Shown piece by piece: positions 9,260 to 24,272 of a DNA stretch of 64,000 bases. Each line of letters opens with the position of its first letter. Within the stretch, counting starts at the first letter, position 1. Below the pieces are notes generated by a model that saw nothing but the letters and a program-made list of their open reading frames with translations, was not told the DNA's origin and did not search any database. The DNA lies in NCBI RefSeq assembly GCF_035961655.1, contig NZ_CP108393.1:3641501-3705500 (forward strand). Reading direction: 5' to 3'. The translations under genes were made by a program, and so were the position numbers. The DNA comes from Streptomyces sp. NBC_01317 (GTDB taxonomy: Bacteria; Actinomycetota; Actinomycetes; Streptomycetales; Streptomycetaceae).

Positions 9260-11770
9260 TCAGCTTGGCGCGGAAGGGGACGGTGGCTCATCCGTGGGGG
9301 ACGGACTCGGTGGTGGGGGCGTCGGGGTCGGGGACGGTGGATCCGTCGGGACGGAGGGGCCTGGGCCGGGATCGGACGAGACGGTGGGGTCCGGATCCGA
9401 GGGTCCGGGTCCGGATCCGGGACCGGGACCGGGGGCCGTCGGTCGGCTCGGCCGCGTGGGGGGCGGCGCCGTACGACCGTAACCGTCCAGCCTCACGACC
9501 GCGCCCGAGGGATGCAGCAGAATCCGAGCCGTCCAGACCCCACCCGGCTCGTACCGCCGGTCGACCCACACCCGCACCGTCACCACGCCGCCAGGCACCA
9601 GCGTTCCCGAACTCTCGCTGAGCCGGATCCACCGCGCACTCGTACCGGCCGACCACGTCACCGCGGCGCCCCCGTAGGCCCGGAGCGTGAGCGTCGTCGT
9701 GCCGCCCGACGACCGCGCCTCGACCGAGAGCCGGCCGGGAGCCGGTTGCCCGGGCCGGGCCGGACGCGGGGGCGGACCGTCGCTGATCACCTCGACGGAC
9801 ACGTCCGGCGTACGGCCACCCCCCGGGCCGCCCGCCCCACCCGCACCGCCCACCAGGAAGCCGTCCCCGGCCCGGACCTCCGCGTTGCCCGCGTTCTCGT
9901 AACGCTCGTACGCACGGTCCTCACCCGGCGCCCCGTCCCTGTCCCGCGCGCTGACCGAGGGCCCCCGGCCCTCCTCCGCCTGCGGCCCGCTCCGGTACGC
10001 CGCCCAGAGCGCGAACACGGGCGCGGCGACGACCGTCGCCACGACGGTGGTGGTCACGGCACGGGCCCGCAGCCGGTCGCGGCGGGCCGCGCGGTCCTTG
10101 GGGTCCATCGGGAAGCCGTTGCGGCCGAAGCGCGGGGAGGTCGCGCGGCCGCGCGGGGCGCGGATCATCGCGGTGTACGCGGCGGCCCTCGGCGCCTCGA
10201 TGAGCGGGAGGACGGCCGGTGAGGTACGGGTACGGACCGAGGGCGTCGTACGGGAACCGGGCCACGGCGCCGACGCCTCCGCGCGCTCGGCGACCCGGCG
10301 GCAGCGCGGGCAGTCGTCCACGTGCCGGACGAGTTCGCGCCGGAGCGTGGCGGAGAGGAGGACGTGATTGTCGCCGGTGAGCCGGGCCACCGAGGGGCAG
10401 CCGCCGGTCTCGACGACCGCGAGGGCGGCGCGGGTGCGCTCCACCTCGCACGCGGCGGAGGCGAGCAGCTCGCGCGCCGCCGTCAGCTCCATCGACAGGA
10501 CGGCGGCCACCTCGTGCGGGCCGAGCTGGTGGCGTACGGCCAACTCCAGGATCTCGCGCTGCTCGGGCGTCGTACCGGCGGCCTCGGGCCAGGCCAGCTG
10601 GGCGAGTTCGTGACGCCGACGCTCCTCGGTCGCGGCGGAGGCGACGGGATCGGTGGTGGAGGAGGTGGAGGAAGTGAAGGAAGTGAAGGAAGTGGAGGAG
10701 GTGGAGGAGGTGGAGGAGGTGGAGGACGGGCTGGGGGCGGGGCCTGGGCCATTCGCCGGGTCGGCGCCCACGCGCCCCGCCGCGGCCCACCCGCCCGGAG
10801 AGTCCCTTCGTCCCGACGCGCGCCACCGACCCGCCGTGCCGATCCCGCCGGTCCCGTCTGCGGCGGTACCCGGCCGGTCCGGACCACCGGACCAGCCCGC
10901 CCCGCCAGAGGCGTCCGCCGCGTCCGGCCCGGCCACGCCGTAAGACGCATCCGACCGGTCCACTCGGGCCGACGCGTCGCGCCTGCCCGCCGAGCCCGTC
11001 CTGTCCACCCCACCGGGGCCGCCGGCCACACCGGCCCGGTCCGCCCCGTCCGCCCTGCCGGACCCGTCCGCCCCACCGGACCGGCCCCGCCCGGATGCGG
11101 CATCGGGACTGCCGGGCCCGTCCGCCGTACCTGAACGGTCCGCCCACGCCGTCGCGTCCGGGCCGCGGACCGCGTTCTGCCCGACCCTCGTGGCCGTCGG
11201 CCCGGCTGCGGCATCCGGACCGCCGACCGCGCCCCCCGCACCCGACCGATCCCCCCAAGCCGCCGCGTCCGGGCCGGCCGCCGCGTCCGGGCCGGCCGCC
11301 GCGTTCGGCCCACCCGCCGTGGCCGCCGCGCCTGGCCCGCCCCGGCCGGTCCGGTGGGACCAGCCCGAGCCGTGGCTCTGGTTCCGGCCGGGCGGTCCGC
11401 CCGTCGCCTGGTCGGTGACCGGCGGGGCCGACCCCGCGCCCGGGGCGCCGGCAGGCGCATGCGCCCCCCGGCGCTGTTCGGTGAGTTTGCGCAGACACGC
11501 CCAGCGGGCCAGCGCATACAGCCACGCCTTGCGCTCCCCCGCGTCGGACGGCGAGCGGCCGAACTGTCGTTCGGAGAGGGCGAGGACGTCCCCTAGCGCC
11601 TCGGTCGCCGCGTCGTGGTCGCAGAGCACGGAGAGGCAGTAGGTGAACAGGCCGTCCAGATAGGGCTCGTACCGTACGGGCGGCCGCCGCTCCAGGGGGC
11701 GGGGGGCGCGGCGGGGCGCGCGATGTGCGCCGGTGGTGTGCGGGGAGGTTTCCGGACTGCTGCTGGTCAC
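9260..11770 (-). CDS. Sigma-like / zinc-finger / membrane / BACON-domain fusion protein
   Basis: 836 residues from GTG 11770. Residues 34-97 resemble sigma-70 region 2 (YLDGLFTYCLSVLCDHDAAT, then AWLYALARWACLRKL). About 105-380 are low-complexity Gly/Ala/Asp/Arg/Ser. About 395-465 resemble a region 4 helix-turn-helix (PEQREILELAVRHQLGPHEV). An HxxxCxxC anti-sigma-type zinc motif (HVDDCPRC) is at H483, C487 and C490. A single membrane segment lies near 569-589. About 680-767 look like a BACON beta-sandwich (TVRVWVDRRY, WTARILLHP), and the tail is Pro/Ser/Thr-rich. The layout suggests a membrane-tethered sigma/anti-sigma hybrid with an outside ligand domain. Whether region 2 or 4 still works is unknown. 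SSTSST repeats come from a GGA/GGT run at 10655-10730. Confidence 0.8.
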   Translation of the reverse strand: MTSSSPETSPHTTGAHRAPRRAPRPLERRPPVRYEPYLDGLFTYCLSVLCDHDAATEALGDVLALSERQFGRSPSDAGERKAWLYALARWACLRKLTEQRRGAHAPAGAPGAGSAPPVTDQATGGPPGRNQSHGSGWSHRTGRGGPGAAATAGGPNAAAGPDAAAGPDAAAWGDRSGAGGAVGGPDAAAGPTATRVGQNAVRGPDATAWADRSGTADGPGSPDAASGRGRSGGADGSGRADGADRAGVAGGPGGVDRTGSAGRRDASARVDRSDASYGVAGPDAADASGGAGWSGGPDRPGTAADGTGGIGTAGRWRASGRRDSPGGWAAAGRVGADPANGPGPAPSPSSTSSTSSTSSTSFTSFTSSTSSTTDPVASAATEERRRHELAQLAWPEAAGTTPEQREILELAVRHQLGPHEVAAVLSMELTAARELLASAACEVERTRAALAVVETGGCPSVARLTGDNHVLLSATLRRELVRHVDDCPRCRRVAERAEASAPWPGSRTTPSVRTRTSPAVLPLIEAPRAAAYTAMIRAPRGRATSPRFGRNGFPMDPKDRAARRDRLRARAVTTTVVATVVAAPVFALWAAYRSGPQAEEGRGPSVSARDRDGAPGEDRAYERYENAGNAEVRAGDGFLVGGAGGAGGPGGGRTPDVSVEVISDGPPPRPARPGQPAPGRLSVEARSSGGTTTLTLRAYGGAAVTWSAGTSARWIRLSESSGTLVPGGVVTVRVWVDRRYEPGGVWTARILLHPSGAVVRLDGYGRTAPPPTRPSRPTAPGPGPGSGPGPSDPDPTVSSDPGPGPSVPTDPPSPTPTPPPPSPSPTDEPPSPSAPS

Positions 11771-11849: not shown

Positions 11850-11868
11850 AAAAGGGGACAGCTGTCCC
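11850..11868 (-). terminator. Terminator of the biosynthetic operon
   Basis: Immediately after the KS stop codon, the minus strand reads GGGAC-AGCT-GTCCC followed by CCTTTT, a short 5-bp stem with a 4-base loop and a T-run. The same bases form a perfect 14-bp palindrome (11855-11868), so a protein-binding site is an alternative. Confidence 0.45.
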
Positions 11869-13122
11869 TCATTCCGGCGGGCGGAAGGCAAGGACGGTGT
11901 TGTGGCCCCCGAACCCGGCCGACGTGCTGAGCGCGAGCCCGAGCGGATGTTTGTACGCCTCGCCGGTGACGAGGTCCAGCTCGCCCGTTCCGCTGTCGGG
12001 ACGCCGGAAGTTGGCCGTGGGCGGGGCCAGTTGGTGGGAGACCGTCAGCGCGGTGAGCGCGGCCTCGATGGAGCCCGCCGCGCCCATGGGATGCCCGGTG
12101 ACCCCTTTCGTGGAGGTGACCGTCGGCGGGCGCGCGCCGAAGAGCCGGCGCAACACGCTTGCCTCCCGCGCGTCGTTGAGCGGGGTGCTCGTGCCGTGGG
12201 CGTTGATGTGGTCCACCTCCTCCGGACCGGCTCCCGCCGTCGCCAGGGCCCGTACCAGCGCCTCGTGCAGTCCGCGCCCCTCCGGATGCGGGGCGACCGG
12301 GTCGTGCGCGTCGGTGGTGGAGCCGTACCCCGCGAAGAGCGCGTGCACCGGCGCACGCCGGGTGGCGGCGTCCGCCGTACGTTCCAGCACCAGCACCCCC
12401 GCGCCCTCCGCGATGACAAATCCGTCCCGGTCCGCGTCGAACGGCCGTGAAGCGGCGGCCGGATTCCCCGCGCGCCCGGACAACGCGCCCATCTGGGCGA
12501 AGGCCGTCACGCACAGCGGCGTGACCATGGCGTCGGTCCCGCCCGCGACGGCGATGTCGCAGGCCCCCTCGCGCAGGAGCATCGCGGCGACGATCAGCGC
12601 GGTGGCCCCGGACGCGCAGGCGGTGGCGGTGTGCAGGACGGGACCCCGCGCGTCGAGCGCGATGGCCGTCTGCCCGGCCGCCATGTTCGGCAGGAACGCC
12701 GGGAGGGTGAGCGGCGAGACCGAACGCGGGCCGGTACGGAGCAGTCTGGTGTGCTGGCTCTCGTACGTCGTGACTCCGCCGGCCGCCGACCCCATGACCA
12801 CCGCGACCCGGGCGCCGTCCCAGGACGCGGGGTCGAGCCCGGCGTCCGCGACCGCCTCCCTGGCCGCCGTGATGCCGAACTGCGTACAGCGGTCGAGCCG
12901 CCACGCCTGCCGTACGCCGACATGGATGCGGGGGTCGAAGCCCGGGACGCGGCAGGAGAACGGGACGGGGAGGCCGGCCAGTTCGGGGTCCGTGGCGGCG
13001 GTCGGCACGCCGGCGCAGACCCGGTCCCAGGTCGCCCGCGTGCCGATGCCCGCGGGGGTGACGAGGCCGATGCCGGTGACGGCGAGAGGTTCCGTACGGT
13101 CGGCCCTCGCGCGACCGGTCAC
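11869..13122 (-). CDS. Beta-ketoacyl-ACP synthase, FabF/KS-alpha type
   Basis: 417 residues from GTG 13122, which overlaps the ACP stop by GTGA. It is a condensing enzyme that would extend an acyl-ACP with malonyl-ACP. The catalytic set is intact: Cys169 in TACASGATAL, His309 in NAHGTSTPL, and His344 in TKGVTGHPMGAAGS with the usual Lys just before it. There is no KS-beta/chain-length-factor partner beside it, so it is not a standard type II aromatic PKS pair. It is the last gene of the seven-gene island operon, directly after its ACP. Whether it is fatty-acid or specialised-metabolite in nature is inferred from context, since housekeeping fab genes are absent here. Confidence 0.93.
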   Translation of the reverse strand: MTGRARADRTEPLAVTGIGLVTPAGIGTRATWDRVCAGVPTAATDPELAGLPVPFSCRVPGFDPRIHVGVRQAWRLDRCTQFGITAAREAVADAGLDPASWDGARVAVVMGSAAGGVTTYESQHTRLLRTGPRSVSPLTLPAFLPNMAAGQTAIALDARGPVLHTATACASGATALIVAAMLLREGACDIAVAGGTDAMVTPLCVTAFAQMGALSGRAGNPAAASRPFDADRDGFVIAEGAGVLVLERTADAATRRAPVHALFAGYGSTTDAHDPVAPHPEGRGLHEALVRALATAGAGPEEVDHINAHGTSTPLNDAREASVLRRLFGARPPTVTSTKGVTGHPMGAAGSIEAALTALTVSHQLAPPTANFRRPDSGTGELDLVTGEAYKHPLGLALSTSAGFGGHNTVLAFRPPE

Positions 13123-13400
13123 CGCGCGGTTCCGGTGTCGGCGGCGGCGTCGACCGGGCCGCCGCCCTCGGGCAGTTGGTCCGCGACCAGGCGCGCGAGG
13201 TGGTCGATCGACAGCTCAGCGGCCGCGTCGCCGTCGTCCAGTTCGACGCCCCACCGCTCCTGCACCGTGACGAGCAGCTCCACCACCGCCAGGGAGTCCA
13301 ACTCCAGCTCGGCGAGGGTCGATCCGGGCTTGACGGCATCGGGGTCGACGTCGAACTTGTCCACGAGCAGGGTCACGAGGTACTGGCTGACAGTTTCCAT
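13119..13400 (-). CDS. Acyl carrier protein
   Basis: 93 residues from ATG 13400. The phosphopantetheine attachment serine is Ser36 in ELDSLAVVEL, the standard DSL motif. An acidic four-helix ACP core (about residues 1-75) is followed by a short Gly/Ala/Asp-rich tail. Its start lies 28 bp inside the 3' end of the upstream KAS III gene and its stop overlaps the KS start by GTGA, so it is co-translated with both. It is the only carrier protein in the operon and is expected to carry all acyl intermediates. Confidence 0.93.
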   Translation of the reverse strand: METVSQYLVTLLVDKFDVDPDAVKPGSTLAELELDSLAVVELLVTVQERWGVELDDGDAAAELSIDHLARLVADQLPEGGGPVDAAADTGTAR

Positions 13401-14506
13401 GACGGATGACTCCGGTCTGTGTCGGAAAGAGAAAGGGGACGGGGTGTCGGGTCGGTGGAGAACGGCAGGACGGACGGCCAGGTGAGCGCGATCGCCCCCC
13501 AGGTCAGCCCGCCCCCGAAGGTGGTGAGCAACGCCCGCGCGCCGGGCCTGACGAGCCGCCGGGCCGCCGTGTCGGCGAGCGCCAGCGGGATGGACGCGGC
13601 GGCGGTGTTGCCGACGTCCGCGATGTTGCCGAAGCGGTGGTGGGCGGCGACTCCGAGCCGTTCGGCCACTGAGTCGAGGATGCGCTGGTTGGCCTGGTGG
13701 CCGATGAACGCCTCGACGCTCGGGGCGGGCCAGCCGGCCCGGCCGAGCGCGGTCTGCGCGGAGCGCGTCATGTGCGTCACGGCCTGCGCGTACACCTGAC
13801 GCCCCCGCATCCGGAAGTACCGCTCGTCACGGTCGAGTTGAGCCGTGCCGGGCAGCCGCGAGCCGCCCCCGGCGACGGCGATCAGGTCGCTGCCCGAGCC
13901 GTCCGCGCCGAGGTCGGCGGCGACGAGGGCGCCGGGCTCGTCCCGGTCCCCCGCCCGCAGCAGGAACGCCCCGGCGCCGTCGCCGAAGATCGGGGCGGTG
14001 TCGCGGTCCTGCGGATCGACGATGGCCGAGTACTTCTCGGCGCCGATGACCAGCGGATAGCGGCACGTGCCGTGGGCGATCAGGGCGTTGGCCGTGGTCA
14101 GGGCGTACAGGAAGCCGGAGCAGACAGCCGCGAGGTCGAAGGCCGGTACGGGGCCGAGGCCCAGCCGGTGGGCGACGTCGGGGGCGGTGGCGGGGCACGG
14201 CCGGTCCGGGGTGGTGGTCGCGATCAGCACCAGATCGGGCCGGATGCCGGGCGCGGACCGCATGGCCGCCTCCCCGGCGGCGAGGGCCAGATCGCCGGTG
14301 CTGACGCCGGGGGCCGCGTGGCGGCGGCGGGCGATGCCGGTGCGGGAGCGTATCCACGCGTCGGTGGTCGCCAACTCCCCCCGGGCCACGATCTCTTCGT
14401 TGGTGAGCGAGCGCGGCGGGAGGCAGGAGCCGATGCCGCAGACGACGGCGGTGGAGGCGGAGACGGGGGACACGGCGGAAACGGCGGAGACCGGGGACAC
14501 GTTCAC
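13373..14506 (-). CDS. KAS III-type ketoacyl synthase (copy A)
   Basis: 377 residues. The start is the GTG at 14506, which overlaps the SDR stop by GTGA and places a short Val/Ser-rich leader before the conserved VVCGIGSCLP. The FabH-type triad is intact: Cys129 in AVCSGF, His270 in GHQANQRI, Asn300 in VGNTAAAS. Such enzymes condense an acyl-CoA with malonyl-ACP, or in relatives transfer acyl groups. The C-terminus extends about 30 residues past the usual FabH end, and its coding region runs 28 bp into the ACP gene. It is one of two different KAS III proteins in the operon. Confidence 0.92.
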   Translation of the reverse strand: MNVSPVSAVSAVSPVSASTAVVCGIGSCLPPRSLTNEEIVARGELATTDAWIRSRTGIARRRHAAPGVSTGDLALAAGEAAMRSAPGIRPDLVLIATTTPDRPCPATAPDVAHRLGLGPVPAFDLAAVCSGFLYALTTANALIAHGTCRYPLVIGAEKYSAIVDPQDRDTAPIFGDGAGAFLLRAGDRDEPGALVAADLGADGSGSDLIAVAGGGSRLPGTAQLDRDERYFRMRGRQVYAQAVTHMTRSAQTALGRAGWPAPSVEAFIGHQANQRILDSVAERLGVAAHHRFGNIADVGNTAAASIPLALADTAARRLVRPGARALLTTFGGGLTWGAIALTWPSVLPFSTDPTPRPLSLSDTDRSHPSWKLSASTS

Positions 14507-15441
14507 CGCGTGGGATCCGGGAACGGCAGCGGCTCGTCGGCCGGGGCGGGCGAAGGCACCGGAGCCACGAACGGGGAGGGCGGCTTGGGGTTCCCCGCCA
14601 GACCGCCGTCCGGTACGGACATCCCGCCGTCCAGCACCAGCGCGTGGCCGGTCAGATACGCGGACGCCGGCGAGGCCAGGTAGAGCGTGGCCGCCGCCAC
14701 GTCCGCCACCTCGGCCCACCGCCCCAGCGGCACATGCCCCATCAGCCAGTCGGAGAGCGGCCCGCTGCCGTACGCGAACGCCGTCATGTCCGTACGGGTC
14801 CAGCCGGGGCAGAGCGCGTTGACCCGGACCCCCTGGTGCGCCCAGCCCGTCGCCAGACTCCGTACGAGCGAGATCTGCGCCGCCTTCGAGGCCGCGTACG
14901 CCTCCATGCGCGGCGCCCCGACCACCCCGGCCACGGACGACATCAGCACCAGACTGGCCCGGGGGGATTCCACGAGGTACGGGTACGCGGCCCGGCAAAT
15001 GGCGGCCGTGGCACCGAGGTTGACGTGCAGCACGCTGTCCCAGTCCCGCTGGAAGGACTCCTGGAGGGGCAGGACGACCGGCGACCCGTCGGCCTCCATG
15101 GGCAGGATGCCCGCGTTGTGGACGACGATGTCGAGGCCGCCGAGCGCCCGCGCCGCCCGGTCCACGACGTGGACGGCCTGGGCGGTGTCGGCGAGGTCGC
15201 CGGGCACGAGCACGGCCGTCCGCCCCTGCTCCTGGACGAGGGTGGCGGTCTCCTTGAGGGCGTCGCCGGTACGGGCGGAGAGGGCGACGTCGGCGCCCGC
15301 CTCCGCGAGGGCCTGGGCGACGGCCCGGCCGATGCCCCGGGAGGCGCCGGTGACCAGCGCGCGGGCGCCGTCGACGCGGAAGGTGGACAGGACGGTGCTG
15401 CCGACGCGGCTGGTGCTCGTACCGCTCGCGCTGGTGGTCAC
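14503..15441 (-). CDS. Short-chain dehydrogenase/reductase (probable ketoreductase)
   Basis: 312 residues from GTG 15441 (GTGA overlap with copy B of KAS III). Classical SDR features are the NAD(P) motif VTGASRGIGRA near residue 30, VHNAG, the catalytic Ser in LMSSVAG, and Tyr182/Lys186 in YAASK. A C-terminal Pro-rich tail of about 35 residues follows the fold. In this setting a FabG-like reduction of beta-ketoacyl-ACP is the simplest role. Oxidation of an alcohol intermediate is an alternative that sequence alone cannot exclude. It is coupled at both ends to the two KAS III genes. Confidence 0.9.
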   Translation of the reverse strand: MTTSASGTSTSRVGSTVLSTFRVDGARALVTGASRGIGRAVAQALAEAGADVALSARTGDALKETATLVQEQGRTAVLVPGDLADTAQAVHVVDRAARALGGLDIVVHNAGILPMEADGSPVVLPLQESFQRDWDSVLHVNLGATAAICRAAYPYLVESPRASLVLMSSVAGVVGAPRMEAYAASKAAQISLVRSLATGWAHQGVRVNALCPGWTRTDMTAFAYGSGPLSDWLMGHVPLGRWAEVADVAAATLYLASPASAYLTGHALVLDGGMSVPDGGLAGNPKPPSPFVAPVPSPAPADEPLPFPDPTR

Positions 15442-16508
15442 TGATGGCTCCTTCGACGGTCCGTGGGAGGGGGAGAGGGTGCGGCGGGGATCCCGGCGCC
15501 GGGGGCGCCGGTCCAGTCCAGGAGGGCGCTGCCCCAGGTGAGGCCCGCGCCGAAGACGGTGATCAGGACCCGGCCGCCGTCCGGTACGAGTCCGTGCGCG
15601 GCGGCGGTCGCCAGGGCGTACGGTGCCGAGGCGGCGCCGATGTTGCCCACCTGGTCGCCGACGATCACCAGGCGTTCGGGCCGGATGCCCATCTCGGCGC
15701 CGAGGCGTCGCAGCAGCACGGGATTGGGCTGGTGGACGACAAACGTGTCGATGTCGTCCAGGACGAGGTCGTTGCGTTTCAACGTCTCCTCGACCAGCCG
15801 GGGGAAGACGTCCACGATGAAGTCGCGGACGGCCCGGCCGTCCATGTGGATGAAGTGGGCGCCGCTGTCGAGCGTCGCGGCGGTGGCCGGCCTGCGGCTG
15901 CCACCGGCGGGGATGAGGACGTGGTGGGCGCCGCGGCCGTCGGAGCCGAGGCGGAACTCCCGGAATCCACGGCCCTGTTCGACCGGTCCGAGGATGGCCG
16001 CGGCGGCGCCGTCGGCGAAGAGGACCGCCGTACCCCGGTCGGTGAGATCGAGGAACTTGGAGTACGTCTCGACACCGACGACCGCCGCGTACCGCGCCCG
16101 GGAGTCGCCGCGCAGCCAGTCGTGGGCGACCTTGGCGGCGAACAGCCAGCCGGAGCAGGCGGCGCTGACGTCGAGGGCGACCGCGTGGTGGGCGCCGGTG
16201 AGGGCCTGGACCCGGCAGGCGGTCGAGGGGCCCAGTTCGTCGGGGGTGGAGGTGGCGGAGACGAGGAGGCCGATCTCGTCGGTCCCGAGGCCGGCCGCGT
16301 CGGCGGCGGCGCGGACGGCCGCCGCCGCGAGGTCGGAGGCCGCCTCGTCGGGGGCGGCGACGTGGCGGGTGCGGACGCCGGTGCGCTCGGCGATCCACTG
16401 CGGGGTGACCCCGGCGGACCGGGCGATCTCCTCGTTGTCCCGCTGCCGGGCGGGGAGGTGGGCGCCCATGCCGAGGACGCCGATGGAGGGATCGGTACGC
16501 GCCCTCAT
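15438..16508 (-). CDS. KAS III-type ketoacyl synthase (copy B)
   Basis: 356 residues from ATG 16508 (ATGA overlap with the oxidase gene). It has its own intact triad, Cys118 in AACSGW, His259 in VVHQPNP and Asn289 in VGNIGAASA. The residues around the triad differ from copy A (GNIGAASAPYAL against GNTAAASIPLAL), so the two are not a recent duplication and probably have different substrates. Possible roles are starter-unit condensation or acyl transfer, as in the CerJ-like branch of KAS III proteins. The Cys is retained, unlike DpsC-type priming proteins with Ser. Confidence 0.92.
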   Translation of the reverse strand: MRARTDPSIGVLGMGAHLPARQRDNEEIARSAGVTPQWIAERTGVRTRHVAAPDEAASDLAAAAVRAAADAAGLGTDEIGLLVSATSTPDELGPSTACRVQALTGAHHAVALDVSAACSGWLFAAKVAHDWLRGDSRARYAAVVGVETYSKFLDLTDRGTAVLFADGAAAAILGPVEQGRGFREFRLGSDGRGAHHVLIPAGGSRRPATAATLDSGAHFIHMDGRAVRDFIVDVFPRLVEETLKRNDLVLDDIDTFVVHQPNPVLLRRLGAEMGIRPERLVIVGDQVGNIGAASAPYALATAAAHGLVPDGGRVLITVFGAGLTWGSALLDWTGAPGAGIPAAPSPPPTDRRRSHQ

Positions 16509-18559
16509 GTGGCCCTGCCTCGTCGGGTGTCGGTGTGGTGGCTCGCATGCGGATCGGTCCCGTACGAGTCCGTCGCGTGAGACTCGGTCCCGCACGGATC
16601 GGTGCTGTACGAGTCGGTCCTGTACGAGTCGGTCCCGTACGCGCCCCCGTCCAGCCCCTCGACCAGCGCCGCCGCGTACTCGTCGGCGCCCAGCGGCGCG
16701 GGCGCGAGCCCGTCGGGCAGGGCCATGCCCCGCGCCAACAGCGGGAGGTGCGGGGTCAGTTCGTCGCACCGGTCGTCCATGAGGGCGGGCAGCGCGGTGA
16801 CGGTCGGGGCGTCCAGGACCCCCGTGGACTGGAGGACGCCGGACAGGCGGTGTGCCTGGAGCAGTCCGTACAGCGCGGCGAGCAACGGCAGTGCCTGTTT
16901 CACCCCGGGCTCCCCGGCGCCGTTCACGGCGGCGGTGAGGTTCTCGGCCGCGAGCCGGTGCGCGTACACCTCCCCCAGCTGTTGCGCCCGGCTGAGCAGG
17001 GGGTTCCACAACTCCAGCCCCTCCAGGCCCTGTTCGGTACGGGCCCGCAGGGCGCCGCGCAGGTCGGCCGTGAGCCGGCGTTGCAGGGCGCGGGTGACCG
17101 CCGGCCACCAGGCGGGGTCGGCCGGGGAGAGGGCGTGGTGCGGGGTGCCGGGCTCCGGCTCGGGCGGTACGTCGTCGGTGGCCAGGGCACGGCCGGTGTC
17201 GAGCATGATCAGCGTGCTGTCGCCGCCCGCGCTGTCGAAGGCGTGGGCGAAGCCCTGCCAGGACTGGAGCCGGTTGACGTCCAGGAACCCGGCGAGTCCG
17301 CTGCGGTGCTGGCAGGAGGCGGCGAGCCGGGCGGTCTCCCGTACGGTGAACGCCTTGTAGGCCGCCAGCGGACGGTCGACGGCCGACCAGGGCGCGAAGG
17401 TCATCTTCGCGCCGGCGCGCACCTGGCCCGGGAGCGCCGCCGTTCCCTCGGGGGGCCGGTGGGCCGCGCTCCACGTGTCGCGGGCCGTGCCCGCCGTACA
17501 GCTCAGCGCGAAGGCCTCCGCCAGGGCACCGAGCACGGCGTGCTGCTGGGTGCGGTACGTGAGCACCGGCGCGCCGGGGGCGAACCTGCCGTGGGAGCGC
17601 CGGTGGGCCGAGTGGCGCAGGGTCGTCACGGCGGCGCCGCGGGCCATCGCCGCCATCGCGGACGGCAGGGTCGCCCAGAGCGCCTGCCCGACGGACAGGG
17701 TCCGCCGGAGCCGGGCGTCGGGGGTGCCGAGCGGGTCGTGCGGGACGCCGTCCGCGTCGAGATCGGCGCTGTCCCGCAGCCAGTTGTCGTACGGGACCCT
17801 GACCTGGTCGAAGCGGACCACGGCGTACGCGAGGGGCAGCGCGTGCGCGGAGAGCGGGCCGGAGATGTGGACGCCGGGCACGGTCACGCCGTCGTCGTCG
17901 CTCAGTTCGACGGCGAACGAGAACACCCCCGCGTCCCGGCCGCCGGAGAGGACCCGCGCGCAGACGACCGCCGTCTGCGGGAGGCCGAGCACGGCGACGG
18001 CGGAGAACTTCGCGGCGCGGGCGTCGGGGGTGTGCAGGACGAACTCCCGCCGCTCCCGGTCGAAGGTCGCGGTGGTGCGGATCGCGAGGTGGCTGCTGGC
18101 GTCGCCGATCTCGGTGACCATGAACACGCCCCGGGCGCGCGCCCCTTCGAGCCGCGCCAGGGCGGGCGCGGGCCGGTCGCCGCCGGAGAGGGTGAGGACG
18201 GACCCGGCGCACAGGATGTAGTGCGAGAGCACCGCCATGTAGAGGCTGGGGTCGGCGGCGGCGGCACAGGCGCTGACCTCGGCCAGCAGCTCGGTGTCGG
18301 AGAAGACCTCCTGAATGCCGGGCAGGGACTCGGCGAGGCGGCGCAGCCGCAGGTGGACGGCGTGGTCGCCGGGGAGTCCGGCCTCGGCGGGGAGCGGGGC
18401 GGGGCTGCCGGCGAGCGCGGCCACGATCCGCTCGCGCAGGCCGGGCGGGCAGGAGGTGCCGGTGATCCGGGCGAGTTCGGCGAGCGCCGCTTCGGAGGCG
18501 GCGAAGGGGGCGGTGATGGGGGCGGTTGCCGAGGTGGGCGCGGTGACGGGCGGGTTCAT
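16505..18559 (-). CDS. Acyl-CoA oxidase-like flavoprotein
   Basis: 684 residues, close to peroxisomal-type acyl-CoA oxidases in length. Recognisable parts are the flavin/substrate region VFMVTEIGDASSHLAIRTTATFD near 135-160, VRFDQVRVPYDNWL near 245, and the C-terminal oxidase block from SCQHRSGLAGFLDVNRL to LIMLDTGRALA. In typical family members that block holds the catalytic Glu in FEGDNT. Here the matching stretch is AGGDST, with Gly445 at that position. It would put a 2,3-double bond into an acyl thioester, as HxcO does for the CDA lipid. The last 40 residues are degenerate TDS-type repeats. The start overlaps the AT stop by ATGA. Confidence 0.88.
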   Translation of the reverse strand: MNPPVTAPTSATAPITAPFAASEAALAELARITGTSCPPGLRERIVAALAGSPAPLPAEAGLPGDHAVHLRLRRLAESLPGIQEVFSDTELLAEVSACAAAADPSLYMAVLSHYILCAGSVLTLSGGDRPAPALARLEGARARGVFMVTEIGDASSHLAIRTTATFDRERREFVLHTPDARAAKFSAVAVLGLPQTAVVCARVLSGGRDAGVFSFAVELSDDDGVTVPGVHISGPLSAHALPLAYAVVRFDQVRVPYDNWLRDSADLDADGVPHDPLGTPDARLRRTLSVGQALWATLPSAMAAMARGAAVTTLRHSAHRRSHGRFAPGAPVLTYRTQQHAVLGALAEAFALSCTAGTARDTWSAAHRPPEGTAALPGQVRAGAKMTFAPWSAVDRPLAAYKAFTVRETARLAASCQHRSGLAGFLDVNRLQSWQGFAHAFDSAGGDSTLIMLDTGRALATDDVPPEPEPGTPHHALSPADPAWWPAVTRALQRRLTADLRGALRARTEQGLEGLELWNPLLSRAQQLGEVYAHRLAAENLTAAVNGAGEPGVKQALPLLAALYGLLQAHRLSGVLQSTGVLDAPTVTALPALMDDRCDELTPHLPLLARGMALPDGLAPAPLGADEYAAALVEGLDGGAYGTDSYRTDSYSTDPCGTESHATDSYGTDPHASHHTDTRRGRAT
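16551..16640 (-). repeat. Degenerate 15-bp tandem repeats in the oxidase C-terminus
   Basis: About six imperfect copies of a 15-bp unit encode a pentapeptide of the form (Y/H)xTDS near the C-terminus, for example YRTDSYSTD and HATDSYGTD. The repeat lies after the folded domain and probably arose by slippage. It forms an acidic, hydroxyl-rich tail of unknown role. Confidence 0.7.
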
Positions 18560-19572
18560 CCGACGGCTCCGGGGTGGGGTACGGGTACGGGGTGCGGCGA
18601 CCAGCCGAAGCCGGGGTCGGCCAGGGGCGCCCGGGCCAGGGCGCCGGGCACGATGTGCCGGGCGTTACGGGTCAGCGCGCCGCCCGTCCCCGCCTCCAGC
18701 AGCAGGGCGGGGCCGGGGGCCGCGCGGCGCAGGGTCTCGGGCAGCCGGGCGGGTCGGGTCAGGCAGTGCGCCAGCGCGGCCGCGAGATCGGTGCCGGGGC
18801 CGTGGACGCCCTGGGCGACGGCCGAGTGGACGGGCAGCAGGGGCGGCCGGGCGGGCAGGGTCCCGACGAAGGCGGCGAACGCGGTCGCCGTGCGGCCGAG
18901 CGACGGGTGGTGGGAGAGGAACGGCAGGCGCAGCCGGGTGGACGGGAGCCCGCGCTCATGGGCGAGTTTCTCCACGAGTCCGAGGGCGGGCAGCGGGCCG
19001 GCGAGCACGGTCTCGTGGGAGTCGTTGACACAGGCCACGACCACCCGGTCCCGGGAGGGGCCGAGGGCGACACCGGCCGTCCGCACGAGCGCGTGGGCGG
19101 ATTCCTCGCCCGCGCCGAGCAGTGTCAGTCCTCCGGGGCAGTCGTGCAGCAACTGCCCCAGCCGCAGGGCGATCCGGGCGCCGTCGGGCACGGTGAAGCA
19201 GCCGGCGGCGACCAGGGCGGGGATCTCGCCGAAGCTGACGGCCAGCAGCCGTTCGGGGACCCGCCCGGCCGCGCACAGCGCCCGGTGCACGGACAGAGAG
19301 GCCCCGAACAGCGCCAACTGGGCGGTCCCCGGCGGCCCTTCGGCCAGGTCGCGCCCGCTGGGCGGAGCGTCGGAGACCAGGCGCGGGCCCAGCGGGGCGA
19401 GCCCGTGCTCGACGGCGACCCGGTCGACCTCCTCGAACACCCCGGCGACCGCGTCGCGCAGAGGTAAATGGGCCCGCAGTCCTTTCACCAGAGGAGTGAG
19501 AGCGAAATCGCCCTGGCCGGGAAAGAGATGGAGAGTGGCACGCGGAACGGTGCCGGAAGATGAGGCGGGCAT
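18556..19572 (-). CDS. Discrete acyltransferase (malonyl-CoA:ACP transacylase-like)
   Basis: 338 residues. The ATG at 19572 has a good AGGAGG 9 bases upstream. The N-terminal LFPGQGDFALTPL is the AT family start. The nucleophile is Ser113, but in AVSFGEIPAL rather than the usual GHSLGE, so the residue before Ser is Val, not His. A candidate catalytic His is at 221-222 in PFLSHHPSL. It probably loads malonyl or another acyl unit onto the operon ACP. The altered nucleophile elbow suggests changed selectivity or weak activity. It is the first gene of the operon, and everything downstream is coupled by overlaps. Confidence 0.87.
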   Translation of the reverse strand: MPASSSGTVPRATLHLFPGQGDFALTPLVKGLRAHLPLRDAVAGVFEEVDRVAVEHGLAPLGPRLVSDAPPSGRDLAEGPPGTAQLALFGASLSVHRALCAAGRVPERLLAVSFGEIPALVAAGCFTVPDGARIALRLGQLLHDCPGGLTLLGAGEESAHALVRTAGVALGPSRDRVVVACVNDSHETVLAGPLPALGLVEKLAHERGLPSTRLRLPFLSHHPSLGRTATAFAAFVGTLPARPPLLPVHSAVAQGVHGPGTDLAAALAHCLTRPARLPETLRRAAPGPALLLEAGTGGALTRNARHIVPGALARAPLADPGFGWSPHPVPVPHPGAVG

Positions 19573-20108
19573 TGCCCAGTGCCTCCTGTCGGAAGGAAAG
19601 AGAAACATGCGCTCGGCGCCCCGGTGAACGGGCTGGCCGATCGGCGATCTTCCTCCAGAGTGGAGTACGTGCCCTGCGCCCAAGAATTTTCCGGAGGCCT
19701 GACCTGTTAAATGTTCACCACTGTCAAAAGAGCACGGAACGCAACGCTCCACCGGCGGTCCACCCATGACCCACCAGTGATCCGCCAGTGATCCACAGTC
19801 GATTCAAGAGACACGTGGGACAGAGCGGCACTCGGTCCCCTCGCAGACCACAGGGGCCATGAGACGCGAATCGGACACCGGAGGGCGGCTGTCCGAAAAC
19901 CCGGTTGTGGATATCGGACACCGGCCTGTTCCCTGTCGAACGTGTCACATGTGAGGGCCGCGGAGGACAACGAGGCGCACGCACCCGGCACATTCCACAA
20001 TAAGGCCGCCGTTCGAATCGGTTACAGGCCAGTAAATTCATATCGTGGTCACGTGCGCGTTTCCTTGAGTGTCGAAAAGCGCCGAAAGATGAGTCCGAAA
20101 GGTTTCCC
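19573..20108. promoter_or_regulatory. Divergent control region of the island
   Basis: This 536-bp region, visibly more AT-rich than its surroundings, separates the AT operon (minus) from the HTH-TPR regulator (plus) and holds no gene. It contains two direct copies of ATCGGACACCGG (19870-19881 and 19913-19924). The first is also paired with a downstream TGTCCGA as an inverted repeat. There are also a CCAGTGATCC direct repeat near 19785 and a CACATGTG palindrome near 19948. A TTGACA-like hexamer on the minus strand lies near 19725. These are candidate operators and promoters for both directions. No specific match to a known box is claimed. Confidence 0.5.
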
Positions 20109-21485
20109 ATGACGTCACGGCGTCCGCCGAACGGATTGTTCAAGGACCTCCTGGCCGAAACAGGCTGGACCGGTGAGGAATTGGCGCGTGCCGTCAATCG
20201 CCTCGGCGCCGAGTCCGGCCTGACCCTCCGCTACCAGCGGGCCTCGGTCTCCCAGTGGGCGGCCGGGATCCGCCCCAGACCCCCGGCCCCCGAACTGCTC
20301 GCGGAGGCATTCTCCCGCCGGCTCGGCCGGCGGATCACGGTGGCCGACGTGCTGCCGGGGGCGACCACGCCCGCAGCGGATCCGGTGGCCGCGGAGACCG
20401 GATCGCCGGTCGAAAAACCCACCCCCGCAAGGCAGTTGGTGGATCTGGGGCGTCGGGTCGCCCAGCGCGACCGGGCGGCGGCCGCGCTGGTGTACGAACA
20501 CGATCCGCGCCCCTCCCCCGCCGACCGGTACCCCGCCGCCCCGCCCTCGCTCCCCGCCCCACACCCCTCGCCGCAGCCCGCCCCGCATCGCCTGACCCCC
20601 GCCGCCACCGCCGCCGTCGCCGCCATGATCGACGTCTTCTCGACGGCCGACCGTACGCACGGCGGAGGCTTCGCCAGGGCCGCGCTGGCCGCGTATCTGA
20701 GCCAGAGTGTGGCGCCCCTGCTCCGTGCCCCGGGCCCCTCACCGCTGCGGCGTCAACTCCTTTGCTCCGGCGCCACGTTGAGCTATCTGTGCGCCTTCAT
20801 GCACTTCGACGACGAGCTGCACGGACCGGCCCAGCGCTATTACCGCACCAGCCTGGAGCTGGCCGAGGCGGCCGGTGATCCCACGGCCCAGGCCCTCGCC
20901 CTGCGCGCGCTGAGCATCCAGGCCCACACCCTCAAACACCACCGGCGCGCCCTGGACCTGGCCGAGGAGGCGCACCGCCGGGTGACGGCCCGTACCCCCG
21001 CGCAGGTCCGCGCGGGCATACTCGGGCAGCTGGCCGTGGCCGAGGCGGCGACCGGCGGGGGACCCGCATCGACCCGCCGACTGGATGAGGCGGCGCGGGA
21101 GTTGGAGAACGCCGACCGGAACGAACCGGCCGTAGGCGCCTATCACAGCGCGTCCCTCGCCCATCAGCACGCGACGGTCGCCGCCCATCTCGGCGACGGG
21201 ACCCGGGCCGTCTCCGCCCTCCAGGCCTCCCTCGACCGGCGCCCCGACACCGAACCGCGCTCGCGGGTCATCACCTGCGCGGCTCTTGCCGAACTGCACT
21301 TCGCCCGCGGCCATCTGGAGGCCGCGTGCGCGACCTGGCACAGCTTCCTCGACGGATATCCGGCGGTGTCCTCCGCCCGCGCCGACACGGCGCTCACCAC
21401 GATGAGATCGCTGACCCGGGTGCACCGGCGCCAGCCCACCGCCCAGGCCCTCATCCAGCGGGCGGCGTCACTGCAACGCCGTTGA
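20109..21485 (+). CDS. HTH regulator with TPR-like helical repeats
   Basis: 458 residues from ATG 20109. The N-terminus is an XRE-like helix-turn-helix: LFKDLLAETGWTGEELARAVNRLG, then the recognition region LRYQRASVSQWAAGIRPRPP. A Pro-rich linker follows (about 130-165). The C-terminal 280 residues are helical repeats of TPR type (RYYRTSLELAEAAGDPTAQALAL, RRALDLAEEAHRRV). This is the architecture of streptomycete regulators such as the NsdA-like group. It is divergent from the seven-gene operon and is its most likely controller, judged by position. The last codons run into a 22-bp tandem repeat. Confidence 0.85.
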   Translation: MTSRRPPNGLFKDLLAETGWTGEELARAVNRLGAESGLTLRYQRASVSQWAAGIRPRPPAPELLAEAFSRRLGRRITVADVLPGATTPAADPVAAETGSPVEKPTPARQLVDLGRRVAQRDRAAAALVYEHDPRPSPADRYPAAPPSLPAPHPSPQPAPHRLTPAATAAVAAMIDVFSTADRTHGGGFARAALAAYLSQSVAPLLRAPGPSPLRRQLLCSGATLSYLCAFMHFDDELHGPAQRYYRTSLELAEAAGDPTAQALALRALSIQAHTLKHHRRALDLAEEAHRRVTARTPAQVRAGILGQLAVAEAATGGGPASTRRLDEAARELENADRNEPAVGAYHSASLAHQHATVAAHLGDGTRAVSALQASLDRRPDTEPRSRVITCAALAELHFARGHLEAACATWHSFLDGYPAVSSARADTALTTMRSLTRVHRRQPTAQALIQRAASLQRR

Positions 21486-21541
21486 GGCGTCACCGCCACG
21501 CCGTTGAGGCGTCACCGCCATTCCGATGAGGCGTCACCGCC
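21476..21541. repeat. Three tandem 22-bp repeats spanning two stop codons
   Basis: Three consecutive 22-bp units (21476-21497, 21498-21519, 21520-21541) share the core TGAGGCGTCACCGCC; the third differs in its first bases. The first unit supplies the TGA of the regulator, and the third supplies the stop of the convergent IspH-like gene. The junction was therefore made or extended by slippage duplication, at the right edge of the accessory island. Confidence 0.85.
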
Positions 21542-22667
21542 ACACGGCCGAGCGCCCGCCCTGCTGGGGCAGATGCCCGGACCCCCGGCCCACGACCCGG
21601 CGGTGGGCCTCCTGGCGCACCACGCTGTACGGCCCGAGACCCGACAGCGCCTCGGTGACCTCGGCCAGCAGACCGGCGGACGCACCGGGCCCCGCGACGA
21701 CCCCGACGGTGGCGCGGCCCGCGAGCCACTCGCGCCGGATGTCCCGTACGGCCGCGACAGGACGGACGGCCGCCGGGCCCGGCAGACCCGCCAGGAGGAC
21801 CGGGTCGGGCCGGTCGAGCAGCAGGACCACGTCACTCGCCGCGGACAGGGCCCGCAGGGCGTCCCTGCGGTCCGCGGACCGGTAGCACCACTGGTCCGGA
21901 TGCTGTCCGCGCAGCCGGGGGAAGGCCTCGCGCAGCGCCCTGACGGCCGGCACGACGTCGTCGACCGGGGTGCAGGGCCGTACTACGAAGGACACGCTCT
22001 CCGGGTCGGCGACCGCCCGCAGCCGGGTCAGCTGGCGCTCCACCTCGCGGGTGCTGTCGAACGCGACGAGCCGCTCGGGGCCGTCACCCCCGCGCGGGCC
22101 CGCGGGGCCGCCCCTGTCCGGCTCCCCCGAGCCGATCCGGACCACCGTGTCGCCCCGCCGCAGGAACTCCGCCACCGTCTCCCGGGTGCGCGCCGCCCCC
22201 GCGCAGGACGCCGCCGCCTCCGTACCGGAAGCCTCCTCCGTACCGGAAGCCGCCTCCTTACCGGAACAGGTGGCGGCCGTCTCTGCGATCAGCAGCCGGC
22301 GCGTACGGAAGAGGGCCGCCCACTCCCGTACGGACCGCTCGGCGGCGCCGAGGACGTCCGCGCCCAGATCCGCGGGACCCGCCACGGCCACCCCGGCCAC
22401 CGTGCCGTCGACGTCCACGTACGTAGCGGCGAACACGACGGCGCTCCCCGCCCCGTCCCCCGGACGCCCGGCCCCCGGCGTCGGCGTCAACGTCAACGGC
22501 GCCGGATACGCGGAATGCCCGAGCCGCTCCAGGTCGGCCGCGACGAGCGGCGCGGCCGAACAGCGCACCGCCCCCCGCTCCGGATGCACGGCGGAGGTGG
22601 CCACCGTCAGACAGCCCGGACGGACGGCCTCCGTGGCCGACCGCTCGTACAACAGCGTCCTGTTCAC
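21534..22667 (-). CDS. Degenerate IspH/LytB-like protein
   Basis: 377 residues from GTG 22667, which has GGAGGG 8 bases upstream. The C-terminal half aligns by eye with IspH (HMBPP reductase): [22 protein letters not shown], then [26 protein letters not shown] with Cys261 at the position of the third Fe-S cysteine, and later [21 protein letters not shown]. The N-terminal GFCAGV-type cysteine motif is missing. The substrate motif SxN that follows the VVLVVGS strand is also lost (here [10 protein letters not shown]). It therefore lacks key parts of the active site and is unlikely to make IPP/DMAPP. It may be a repurposed paralogue. It is divergent from radA. Confidence 0.75.
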
Positions 22668-22859
22668 CCTCACGACCCTCCGGCCCGGGACGGGCCGCTC
22701 GTCACTCTTCCCTCCGGATTTCCTCCGGCCTACACCTGGATTTTCCCCGGACCGACCGGTCAGGAGCGGCATTTCGGCGCCCGTCCGCCAGAAGTCACCG
22801 GATCGGGGCGGGACCCCGTGCCGGACGGGTTGTCAGTGGTGCCCTATACGGTGAGCGTC

Positions 22860-24272
22860 ATGGCAACCGCCCGCACGAAATCCGCCAAGGACAGGCCGTC
22901 CTACCGCTGTACCGAGTGCGGCTGGACGACCGTCAAATGGCTCGGGCGCTGCCCCGAATGCCAGGCGTGGGGGACGGTCGAGGAGTACGGAGCGCCGGCG
23001 GTACGGACCACCGCGGCCGGCCGCGTGTCCACCGCCGCGCTCCCCATCGGCCAGGTCGACGGGCGTACGGCCACGGCGCGCTCGACCGGGGTGGACGAGT
23101 TCGACCGGGTCCTCGGCGGCGGGCTCGTGCCCGGGGCCGTCGTGCTGATCGCGGGCGAGCCCGGCGTCGGCAAGTCCACGCTCCTGCTGGACGTGGCGGC
23201 CAAGGCGGCCAGTTCCGAGCACCGCACGCTCTATGTGACGGGCGAGGAGTCCGCGAGCCAGGTGCGGCTGCGCGCGGACCGCATCAAGGCCATCGACGAC
23301 CACCTCTACCTCGCCGCCGAGACGGACCTCTCCGCCGTCCTCGGCCATCTCGACGCGGTCAAGCCCTCCCTGCTGATCGTGGACTCCGTACAGACCGTGG
23401 CGTCGCCGGAGATCGACGGGGCGCCGGGCGGGATGGCGCAGGTCCGCGAGGTCGCGGGCGCGCTCATCCGCGCGTCCAAGGAGCGCGGCATGTCCACGAT
23501 GCTGGTGGGCCACGTCACCAAGGACGGCGCGATCGCCGGGCCCCGGCTGCTGGAACACCTCGTGGATGTCGTGCTGTCCTTCGAGGGCGACCGGCACGCC
23601 AGGCTGCGGCTGGTGCGCGGGATCAAGAACCGGTACGGCACGACGGACGAGGTCGGCTGCTTCGAGCTGCACGACGAGGGGATCACCGGCCTCGCCGACC
23701 CGTCGGGGCTCTTCCTGACCCGCCGCGCCGAGGCCGTCCCCGGCACGTGCCTCACGGTCACCCTCGAAGGCCGCCGCCCGCTGGTCGCCGAGGTGCAGGC
23801 CCTGACCGTCGACTCGCAGATCCCCTCCCCCCGGCGGACCACGTCGGGGCTGGAGACGTCCCGGGTGTCGATGATGCTCGCCGTGCTGGAGCAGCGCGGC
23901 CGGATCACGGCCCTCGGCAAGCGGGACATCTACTGCGCCACGGTCGGCGGCGTGAAGCTCACGGAGCCCGCCGCGGACCTGGCGATCGCCCTCGCCCTGG
24001 CCTCCGCCGCCAGCGACACCCCCCTGCCGAAGAACCTGGTCGCGATCGGCGAGGTGGGCCTCGCGGGCGAGGTCAGACGGGTCACCGGAGTGCAGCGCCG
24101 GCTGGCCGAGGCGTACCGGCTGGGCTTCACCGAAGCCCTCGTGCCGAGCGACCCCGGACGGATTCCCGCCGGTATGAAGGTCACGGAAGTCGCCGACATG
24201 GGGGATGCTCTGAGGGTGCTGCCGCGCCGAGGTCGTGCGGACGCCCCACGGGACAACAACGCTCGCCGGTAG
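22860..24272 (+). CDS. radA: DNA repair protein RadA/Sms
   Basis: 470 residues, the usual length. Domain order is a C4 zinc finger (CTECGW near 17, CPEC near 31-34), RecA-like ATPase with Walker [10 protein letters not shown] near 100, the RadA-specific KNRYG motif near 256, and a Lon-like C-terminal domain. It is a branch-migration helicase that processes recombination intermediates. The ATG at 22860 starts the conserved [21 protein letters not shown]. It is 44 bp upstream of disA and probably co-transcribed with it, a pairing found across Gram-positives. Confidence 0.97.

Follow-up and report, generated by a model that had tools for sequence, protein, structure and literature searches.

A set of seven overlapping genes for the synthesis of an acyl chain, located in the chromosome of Streptomyces sp. 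NBC_01317, raises the question of what such a set makes and how it came to its present place. The stretch of DNA analysed here (the window, 64,000 nucleotides) covers positions 3641501–3705500 of the 8.07 Mb single-contig genome, and the named best matches of its proteins belong to Streptomyces. According to a first-pass annotation, genes for an acyltransferase (AT), an acyl-CoA oxidase-like flavoprotein (ACOX), two ketoacyl-carrier protein synthases III (KAS III, designated KAS3a and KAS3b), a short-chain dehydrogenase/reductase (SDR), an acyl carrier protein (ACP) and a ketosynthase (KS) are followed in this region by a divergent regulatory gene (Table 1). We found that these genes constitute a self-contained and mobile cassette, and it is near certain that it is an insertion at this locus and is conserved elsewhere. 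It probably builds a small acyl-derived, fatty-acid-like molecule. The complete interpretation, that is a type II fatty-acid-like cassette spread horizontally, provided with its own NsdA-type regulator and operating by the stepwise route outlined below, is drawn from sequences and is proposed here tentatively, with somewhat less than even confidence.

The origin of the locus was assessed by comparison with its empty counterparts. The radA gene was matched in 15 relatives, the corresponding region was taken from seven of them, and DNA homology was compared in six. Cassette genes were found at this site in none of the seven, and the flanking genes called there follow the order of the window. The earlier supposition that the genes were inserted within an otherwise conserved core segment is thus supported. 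Homology with the empty sites stops at positions 11859–11861 in all six cases and picks up again at 22814–22869, depending on the relative, which sets the size of the insert at approximately 10.95 kb and brings the IspH/LytB-like gene into it. The extent initially ascribed to the locus (11869–21485) was therefore too short. The stop codon of the KS gene lies 8 bp away from the left edge. No 11-mer common to both edges was registered in a check for direct repeats, and no tRNA gene was found in the window. The left edge is bordered by an 836-aa open reading frame (9260–11770) with a marginal match to the BACON domain, in place of which a frame of 482–602 aa was called in six of the seven relatives.

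The occurrence of the cassette in other genomes was estimated in two ways. Genome contigs were scanned once with a 22-sequence alignment of ACOX relatives, which gave 43 named loci. Their genes were called by a GC-frame script, which placed some starts only approximately and overlooked some genes; among the latter, the AT of L041 and both AT and KAS3b of L043 were recovered by tblastn. In 33 of these loci AT, KAS3a, SDR, KAS3b, ACP and KS surround the ACOX gene in identical order and on the same strand, including L103 with a split ACOX and L066, where KS runs off the contig. Two others are cut by contig limits: in L087 the contig stops within KAS3b, and L091, cut on the AT side by the contig start, has only ACOX and the regulator, KAS3a to KS being absent. 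The rest comprises a locus without SDR (L064), two rearranged loci (L076 and L090), three with AT, ACOX and KAS3a only (L088, L098 and L100), one with AT and ACOX only (L099, Burkholderia sp. BCC0506) and a variant with an AfsA-type protein (L104). Gene order is conserved across Streptomyces and Kitasatospora, and an altered form exists in Catenulispora. Overlaps of 4 bp recur at the junctions KAS3a/SDR (27/36), SDR/KAS3b (13/34) and ACP/KS (29/34). As both the order with strand and the overlaps are repeated in this manner, the operon arrangement cannot be ascribed to chance. A homologue of the regulator is present in 38 loci, in 28 of which it is located ahead of AT in divergent orientation. 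Flanks of the 43 loci fall into 35 neighbourhood groups if at least two flanking genes shared at 60% identity are required for grouping, though this number is inflated by loci at contig ends, which have few flanking genes; neither radA nor disA of the window appears in the flanks of any locus.

The second estimate relied on 295 evenly drawn Streptomyces genomes, in which KAS3a was used as a marker (E ≤ 1e-100). It was registered in 12 genomes, window included, nine of which have all seven genes, one is devoid of SDR and two represent AfsA variants. Based on this patchy presence and on the empty sites in all seven relatives, the assumption of a core fatty-acid synthase set was rejected; the first-pass annotation had named its presence at this locus in nearly all streptomycetes as an outcome contradicting its own view, and the whole set was found in 9/295. 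The other such outcome, the same seven genes in a characterised pathway, was not encountered either, as no pathway with this gene set was found in full-text searches of the open-access literature directed at it. Preservation of the set together with its own regulator in many genomic sites supports the idea of a stand-alone pathway. Protein distances among complete sets correlate with r = 0.67–0.92 (528 locus pairs), which fits joint inheritance, although vertical descent would yield the same.

The ACOX-like flavoprotein has retained the features of its family except for the catalytic residue. It matches Pfam domains PF22924 and PF01756 (no NCBIfam model was matched), the top Foldseek matches are acyl-CoA oxidases (E 2.4e-23), and the AlphaFold model has pLDDT 79 and pTM 0.82, so that the fold, as modelled, appears to be conserved and the change to be local. 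Residues T149, E150, G152 and S156 of the flavin adenine dinucleotide (FAD) loop are invariant in the 22-sequence alignment and aligned to those of solved oxidases. In acyl-CoA oxidases the Glu of the EGDN-type motif serves as the general base, and in the profile alignment to the solved enzymes Gly445 falls at the Glu of the EGDN/EGEN motif. The same position was read in 213 rows, reduced to 188 distinct proteins by merging identical sequences. Glu is absent in 174 of them (171 Gly, 2 Ala, 1 Thr), all at least 30.8% identical to the ACOX of the window, and present in all 14 proteins below this level; here it should be considered that sequences entered the Glu-less set through their similarity to the window protein and that, of the ordinary Streptomyces ACOXs found, the residue was read only for those in retrieved loci. 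The split ACOX of L103/L045/L011, left out of the 188 and read apart, has Gly. All 12 genomes positive for KAS3a carry an ACOX of the Glu-less group, the residue being Gly in 10 genomes and Ala and Thr in one each. His157, Asp275, Asp454, Trp260 and Trp295 are typical of the Glu-less group. Glu is present in ACOXs adjoining KASIII-ACP-KS (L050, L051) or, in L022, KS; these also have a small thioesterase-like gene as a neighbour, the product of which in L022 matches YbgC/FadM-type models below cut-offs. It is also present in five ACOXs located beside ScbR-type receptors (L019, L020, L024, L026 and L029; 5/5 neighbours over the cut-off), in whose short flanks no KAS gene was seen. We consider a non-standard chemistry of the cassette enzyme fairly probable.

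A second deviation was found in the AT, which keeps the Ser of the SFGE motif and the His of HHP, both conserved in the cassette set. Within the AT family the carboxylate of malonyl is bound by Arg at position Ser+25. This position is occupied by Leu in 39 and by Val in two of the 41 cassette ATs, and by Arg in all nine distinct other AT domains of the host. This reading disregards a motif match in L164 that was out of frame and leaves out second copies of five mirrored host ATs; the two ATs with Val did not show the motif used for the search and were read separately. Leu is present at Ser+25 in the AT of Burkholderia sp. BCC0506 as well. All seven listed AT-ACOX fusion proteins combine an N-terminal AT having Leu with an ACOX having Gly, lending support to a putative hand-over between the two enzymes. 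Since the ACOX is devoid of the catalytic Glu and the AT of the malonyl-binding Arg, an ordinary 2,3-desaturated product of the cassette seems doubtful. Of the products suggested at the outset (short, reduced or 2,3-unsaturated), this concerns the 2,3-unsaturated alternative, and an epoxidised product as in CDA is doubtful as well. Two more observations concern ATs. The Burkholderia pair (L099, 8979–11881), Glu-less and Leu-type, is situated outside Actinobacteria and without KAS genes. AT domains with identical scores are mirrored at the ends of the host chromosome (about 30–50 kb and 8.016–8.036 Mb), as expected if a type I polyketide synthase (PKS) is present twice, within long terminal inverted repeats.

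The remaining enzymes appear intact. In alignments of 36–41 sequences each, window included and matches below set identity limits left out, both KAS III keep Cys-His-Asn, KS keeps Cys-His-His, SDR keeps Ser-Tyr-Lys and ACP keeps its Ser. Homologues of KAS3b with 50–57% identity adjoin ACP genes (some also KS genes) of other clusters, and KASIII-ACP-KS without the rest of the cassette was found in a plasmid cluster of strain NBC_00887 and on another plasmid, in agreement with the earlier notion that this module also serves elsewhere. A KS-alpha/KS-beta pair is not among the inserted genes, the single KS being of the FabF type with an active Cys, and no gene for a non-ribosomal peptide synthetase (NRPS) or PKS is present among the nine genes called in the insert (11862–22813); gene calls in other parts of the window were inspected by eye only. 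In the IspH/LytB-like protein Cys157 and Cys263 align with cysteines of the host IspH, and Cys38 aligns with none. Its role as a resistance copy of IspH was considered and found unlikely, as it is far diverged (32.6 bits versus 314 for the host IspH). The host has a second IspH homologue (271 bits) at chromosomal positions 1027402–1028142, within an open frame of 713 aa, where the column of the third Fe-S cysteine contains Ala in the alignment.

A hint to a possible intermediate is given by variant loci L046, L052 and L104, in which an AfsA-type hotdog protein is encoded directly upstream of ACOX, at the place occupied by AT in the main form, KAS3a and SDR being members of the same gene group. 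As stated in an excerpt of PMC7756379, domains of the AfsA type catalyse the condensation of 3-ketothioesters with dihydroxyacetone phosphate and release the chain. Presence of such a protein beside ACOX, taken with this chemistry, leads us to propose a 3-ketoacyl thioester, formed by KAS3a, as an intermediate. In the suggested route a short acyl chain would be primed by KAS3b and lengthened by KS while bound to the dedicated ACP, with ketoreductase, dehydratase and enoyl reductase borrowed from the host. KAS3a would then add a malonyl unit giving a beta-ketoacyl thioester, SDR being available for keto reduction. The AT, no longer malonyl-specific, may shift a neutral group, acyl or ketoacyl, from one carrier to another (ACP, CoA or a small acceptor), and in the variants the AfsA-type protein may move or release the ketoacyl group instead. 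Afterwards the ACOX-like flavoenzyme would, rather likely, oxidise this group at an already acidic alpha-carbon, by oxygenation or by oxidation coupled to decarboxylation, and not introduce an ordinary 2,3-double bond; the Glu base could be dispensable because the alpha-carbon of a beta-keto substrate is acidic by itself. The IspH-like protein, where present, may act as an accessory reductase. This detailed sequence of steps is offered as a possible scheme, and we regard it as more probably wrong than right in at least some of its order.

Deviation of a family member from dehydrogenation has precedents. 3-Sulfinopropionyl-CoA desulfinase (PDB 5ahs), a distant structural match (rank 34) with the acyl-CoA dehydrogenase (ACAD) fold, has lost the catalytic base and catalyses a non-dehydrogenase reaction, though unlike the cassette enzyme it is a short ACAD with a catabolic function. 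For the oxidation step of the scheme a chemical precedent, and only that, is provided by TmcF/EpnF, the flavin-dependent decarboxylase-desaturase-monooxygenase of epoxyketone warheads, which acts on a beta-keto acid and is acyl-CoA-dehydrogenase-like according to the title of a cited paper; the resemblance is drawn from the description in an excerpt of PMC9943649.

Some data do not favour this scheme. Long-chain acyl-CoA dehydrogenase (LCAD) and isovaleryl-CoA dehydrogenase have their base at another position. Together with benzylmalonyl-CoA dehydrogenase they contain Gly or Ala at the canonical Glu site, as follows from an excerpt of PMC11659651. Candidates for a replacement are abundant among the 174 Glu-less proteins: the residue 442, three positions before the lost Glu, is Asp or Glu in 140, an acid is present at 275 in all 174, Asp454 in 172, Asp/Glu218 in 161, Asp/Glu281 in 133, and His157, situated beside the flavin loop, in 166. 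At about 289–290, which was taken as the equivalent helix position for a relocated base, an acid was found in only 15. Loss of Glu from the canonical position would alone be compatible with dehydrogenation via a relocated base, which we consider possible. Nor is this loss exclusive to the cassette, as three Glu-less ACOXs (L047–L049) adjoin NRPS/PKS genes without it. The AT, in turn, may have an editing role as a hydrolase or may be a remnant without activity, and the LytB-like gene is present in only 18 of the 43 loci, in several arrangements, and also occurs without the cassette. As for the three ACOXs beside type I PKS/NRPS genes, these loci gave no known product, and two of them have an altered AGLST motif.

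Among other explanations, one relies on the acyl module of calcium-dependent antibiotics (CDA), to which an ACP belongs, as it does here. KAS III, FabF-type KS and an ACOX-type oxidase also occur together in the CDA/cystargamide module, according to an excerpt of PMC9136287, just as they do in the cassette, and KAS3b-ACP-KS with an ACOX-fold protein resembles the FabH4/FabF3/HxcO group described there. If the cassette worked likewise, a short saturated acyl-ACP would be desaturated or epoxidised by ACOX at C2–C3, as has been proposed for calcium-dependent antibiotics and cystargamides. Retention of the fold and of the FAD loop, as well as a possible relocated base such as Asp442, speak in favour of this explanation, but we find it rather unlikely: the missing Glu is present in the Streptomyces ACOXs of L050, L051 and L022, the cassette contains in addition KAS3a, AT, SDR, a regulator and the LytB-like gene, of which the first three would be left unexplained, and the insert is devoid of NRPS. 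Loci were called CDA-like or Aco-like by gene context, HxcO and Aco sequences themselves being outside the comparison, so that the difference in Glu from the CDA module was established against L050/L051 and not against HxcO. With the catalytic Glu missing, the enzyme was assigned neither to the CDA-type desaturases/epoxidases nor to the Aco-type synthases. The latter bring in the idea of an autoregulator cassette, which would make a butenolide- or lactone-like signal perceived by the NsdA-type helix-turn-helix–tetratricopeptide repeat (HTH-TPR) protein as a receptor. Autoregulator synthases are known in two types, AfsA-like and Aco, the latter acyl-CoA oxidase-like (excerpt of PMC7670052); an AfsA-type protein directly precedes ACOX in the three variant loci, the regulator accompanies most loci, and a Streptomyces ACOX-fold protein with a nearby regulator is also what Aco/avenolide-type loci have. 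Unlike them, however, the cassette has Gly, a regulator of the NsdA type and a full KAS/KS/ACP set, while the five ACOXs neighboured by ScbR-type receptors keep Glu and have no KAS genes in short flanks. The insert encodes neither an ScbR-type receptor nor a P450, and the main form of the cassette does without AfsA. We therefore hold the autoregulator to be improbable, and a broader variant of it, a new class of Streptomyces signalling molecules derived from a 3-ketoacyl group, which would be released by AT in most lineages and by an AfsA-type synthase in the others, oxidised by the ACOX-fold enzyme through new chemistry and sensed by the NsdA-type protein, to be slightly less probable still.

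The module KASIII-ACP-KS invites a further comparison. In epoxyketone clusters KASIII and ACP (EpnD/E) supply a butanoyl thioester (excerpt of PMC9943649), and the VlmB-containing plasmid cluster of NBC_00887 shares KAS3b-ACP-KS with the cassette (KAS3b 57% and KS 61% identical); the stretch of NBC_00887 examined, however, showed no KAS3a, no Glu-less ACOX and neither the AT nor the SDR of the cassette. Relative to such KAS3b-ACP-KS starter builders the new part is AT-ACOX-KAS3a-SDR. The plasmid locus L031 (NZ_CP108789.1) contains a cluster with a VlmB-like protein, an aminotransferase and KASIII-ACP-KS, which presumably resembles azoxy-alkyl pathways. One may suppose that a PKS or NRPS line elsewhere in the genome obtains an unusual building block, a starter or an extender, from the operon, since KASIII-ACP-KS sub-cassettes occur in other clusters and very long open frames of the host chromosome contain more AT domains, an arrangement known from type I PKSs. 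Against this stand the 35 neighbourhoods obtained by comparison of flanks, the regulator of its own and an insert without PKS or NRPS gene, and its probability is as small as that of the autoregulator. A dedicated or auxiliary fatty-acid set for membrane lipids or stress, rather than for a specialised metabolite, would account for the FAS-like (fatty-acid synthase-like) components and for the intact motifs of KS, KAS, SDR and ACP; but KAS3a is patchily distributed, a separate host locus with FabD-like and FabH genes lies near 5.854 Mb, and a non-malonyl AT with a Glu-less ACOX fit such a function poorly, which makes this explanation highly improbable.

The layout of the locus is summarised in Table 1. 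Gene calls, sequence, translations and domain scans all confirmed seven tightly overlapped genes on one strand, with the assignments backed by Pfam and NCBIfam. Among the six operon junctions five are 4-base overlaps (AT/ACOX, ACOX/KAS3a, KAS3a/SDR, SDR/KAS3b and ACP/KS), as had been noted before, but only the first four are consecutive, as the fifth comes after the 28-base overlap of KAS3b and ACP. The divergent HTH-TPR regulator is indeed encoded there, on the plus strand, and was attributed by NCBIfam to the NsdA family. A common operator upstream of AT was sought by counting k-mers in the upstream regions of 41 loci and dropped: 9- and 10-mers were shared by at most 14 and 13 of the 41 regions, respectively (shuffle maxima 10 and 7), exact 6-6 palindromes by at most seven, and the signal was inseparable from coding sequence and relatedness. 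Tandem units of 22 bp starting with GGCGTCACyGC occupy positions 21464–21551, where the ends of the regulator and LytB-like genes converge.

Table 1. Features of the cassette and of the inserted block (positions in the window)
Feature	Position	Strand	Properties
AT acyltransferase	18556..19572	-	Ser113, His221/222, Leu138 at malonyl-binding Arg site; Pfam Acyl_transf_1 46.4 bits
ACOX-like flavoprotein	16505..18559	-	Gly445 at catalytic Glu site; FAD-binding loop TExGxxS; Pfam ACOX domains
KAS3a (KAS III)	15438..16508	-	Cys118-His-Asn intact (CSGWLF, HQPNP, GNIGAAS); cassette marker
SDR, FabG-like ketoreductase	14503..15441	-	Ser-Tyr-Lys and GASRGIG present
KAS3b (second KAS III)	13373..14506	-	Cys-His-Asn intact; chain-priming candidate
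ACP	13119..13400	-	phosphopantetheine Ser motif LDSL; Pfam PP-binding
KS, FabF-like	11869..13122	-	Cys-His-His present
REG, NsdA-family HTH-TPR regulator	20109..21485	+	divergent from operon; NCBIfam NsdA_fam_reg 323 bits, cut-off 75
IspH/LytB-like gene	21534..22673	-	Pfam LYTB 34.9 bits; Cys38, Cys157, Cys263
Inserted block, ~10.95 kb, nine called genes	11862..22813	.	edges: left at 11859-11861, right within 22674-22814

The mobile fatty-acid-like cassette proposed here represents an orphan pathway with conserved gene order, for which searches of the open-access full-text literature directed at it gave no match. Database names would be misleading for two of its enzymes, an "acyl-CoA dehydrogenase/oxidase" in which the usual base is missing and an acyltransferase that has no malonyl-binding Arg. 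With a length of 11 kb and a single main operon, the cassette could be cloned as a whole, which makes both the product and the flavin chemistry directly testable. Exchange of AT for an AfsA-type protein and kinship with the Aco-type oxidase, in turn, bear on the origin of Streptomyces signals.

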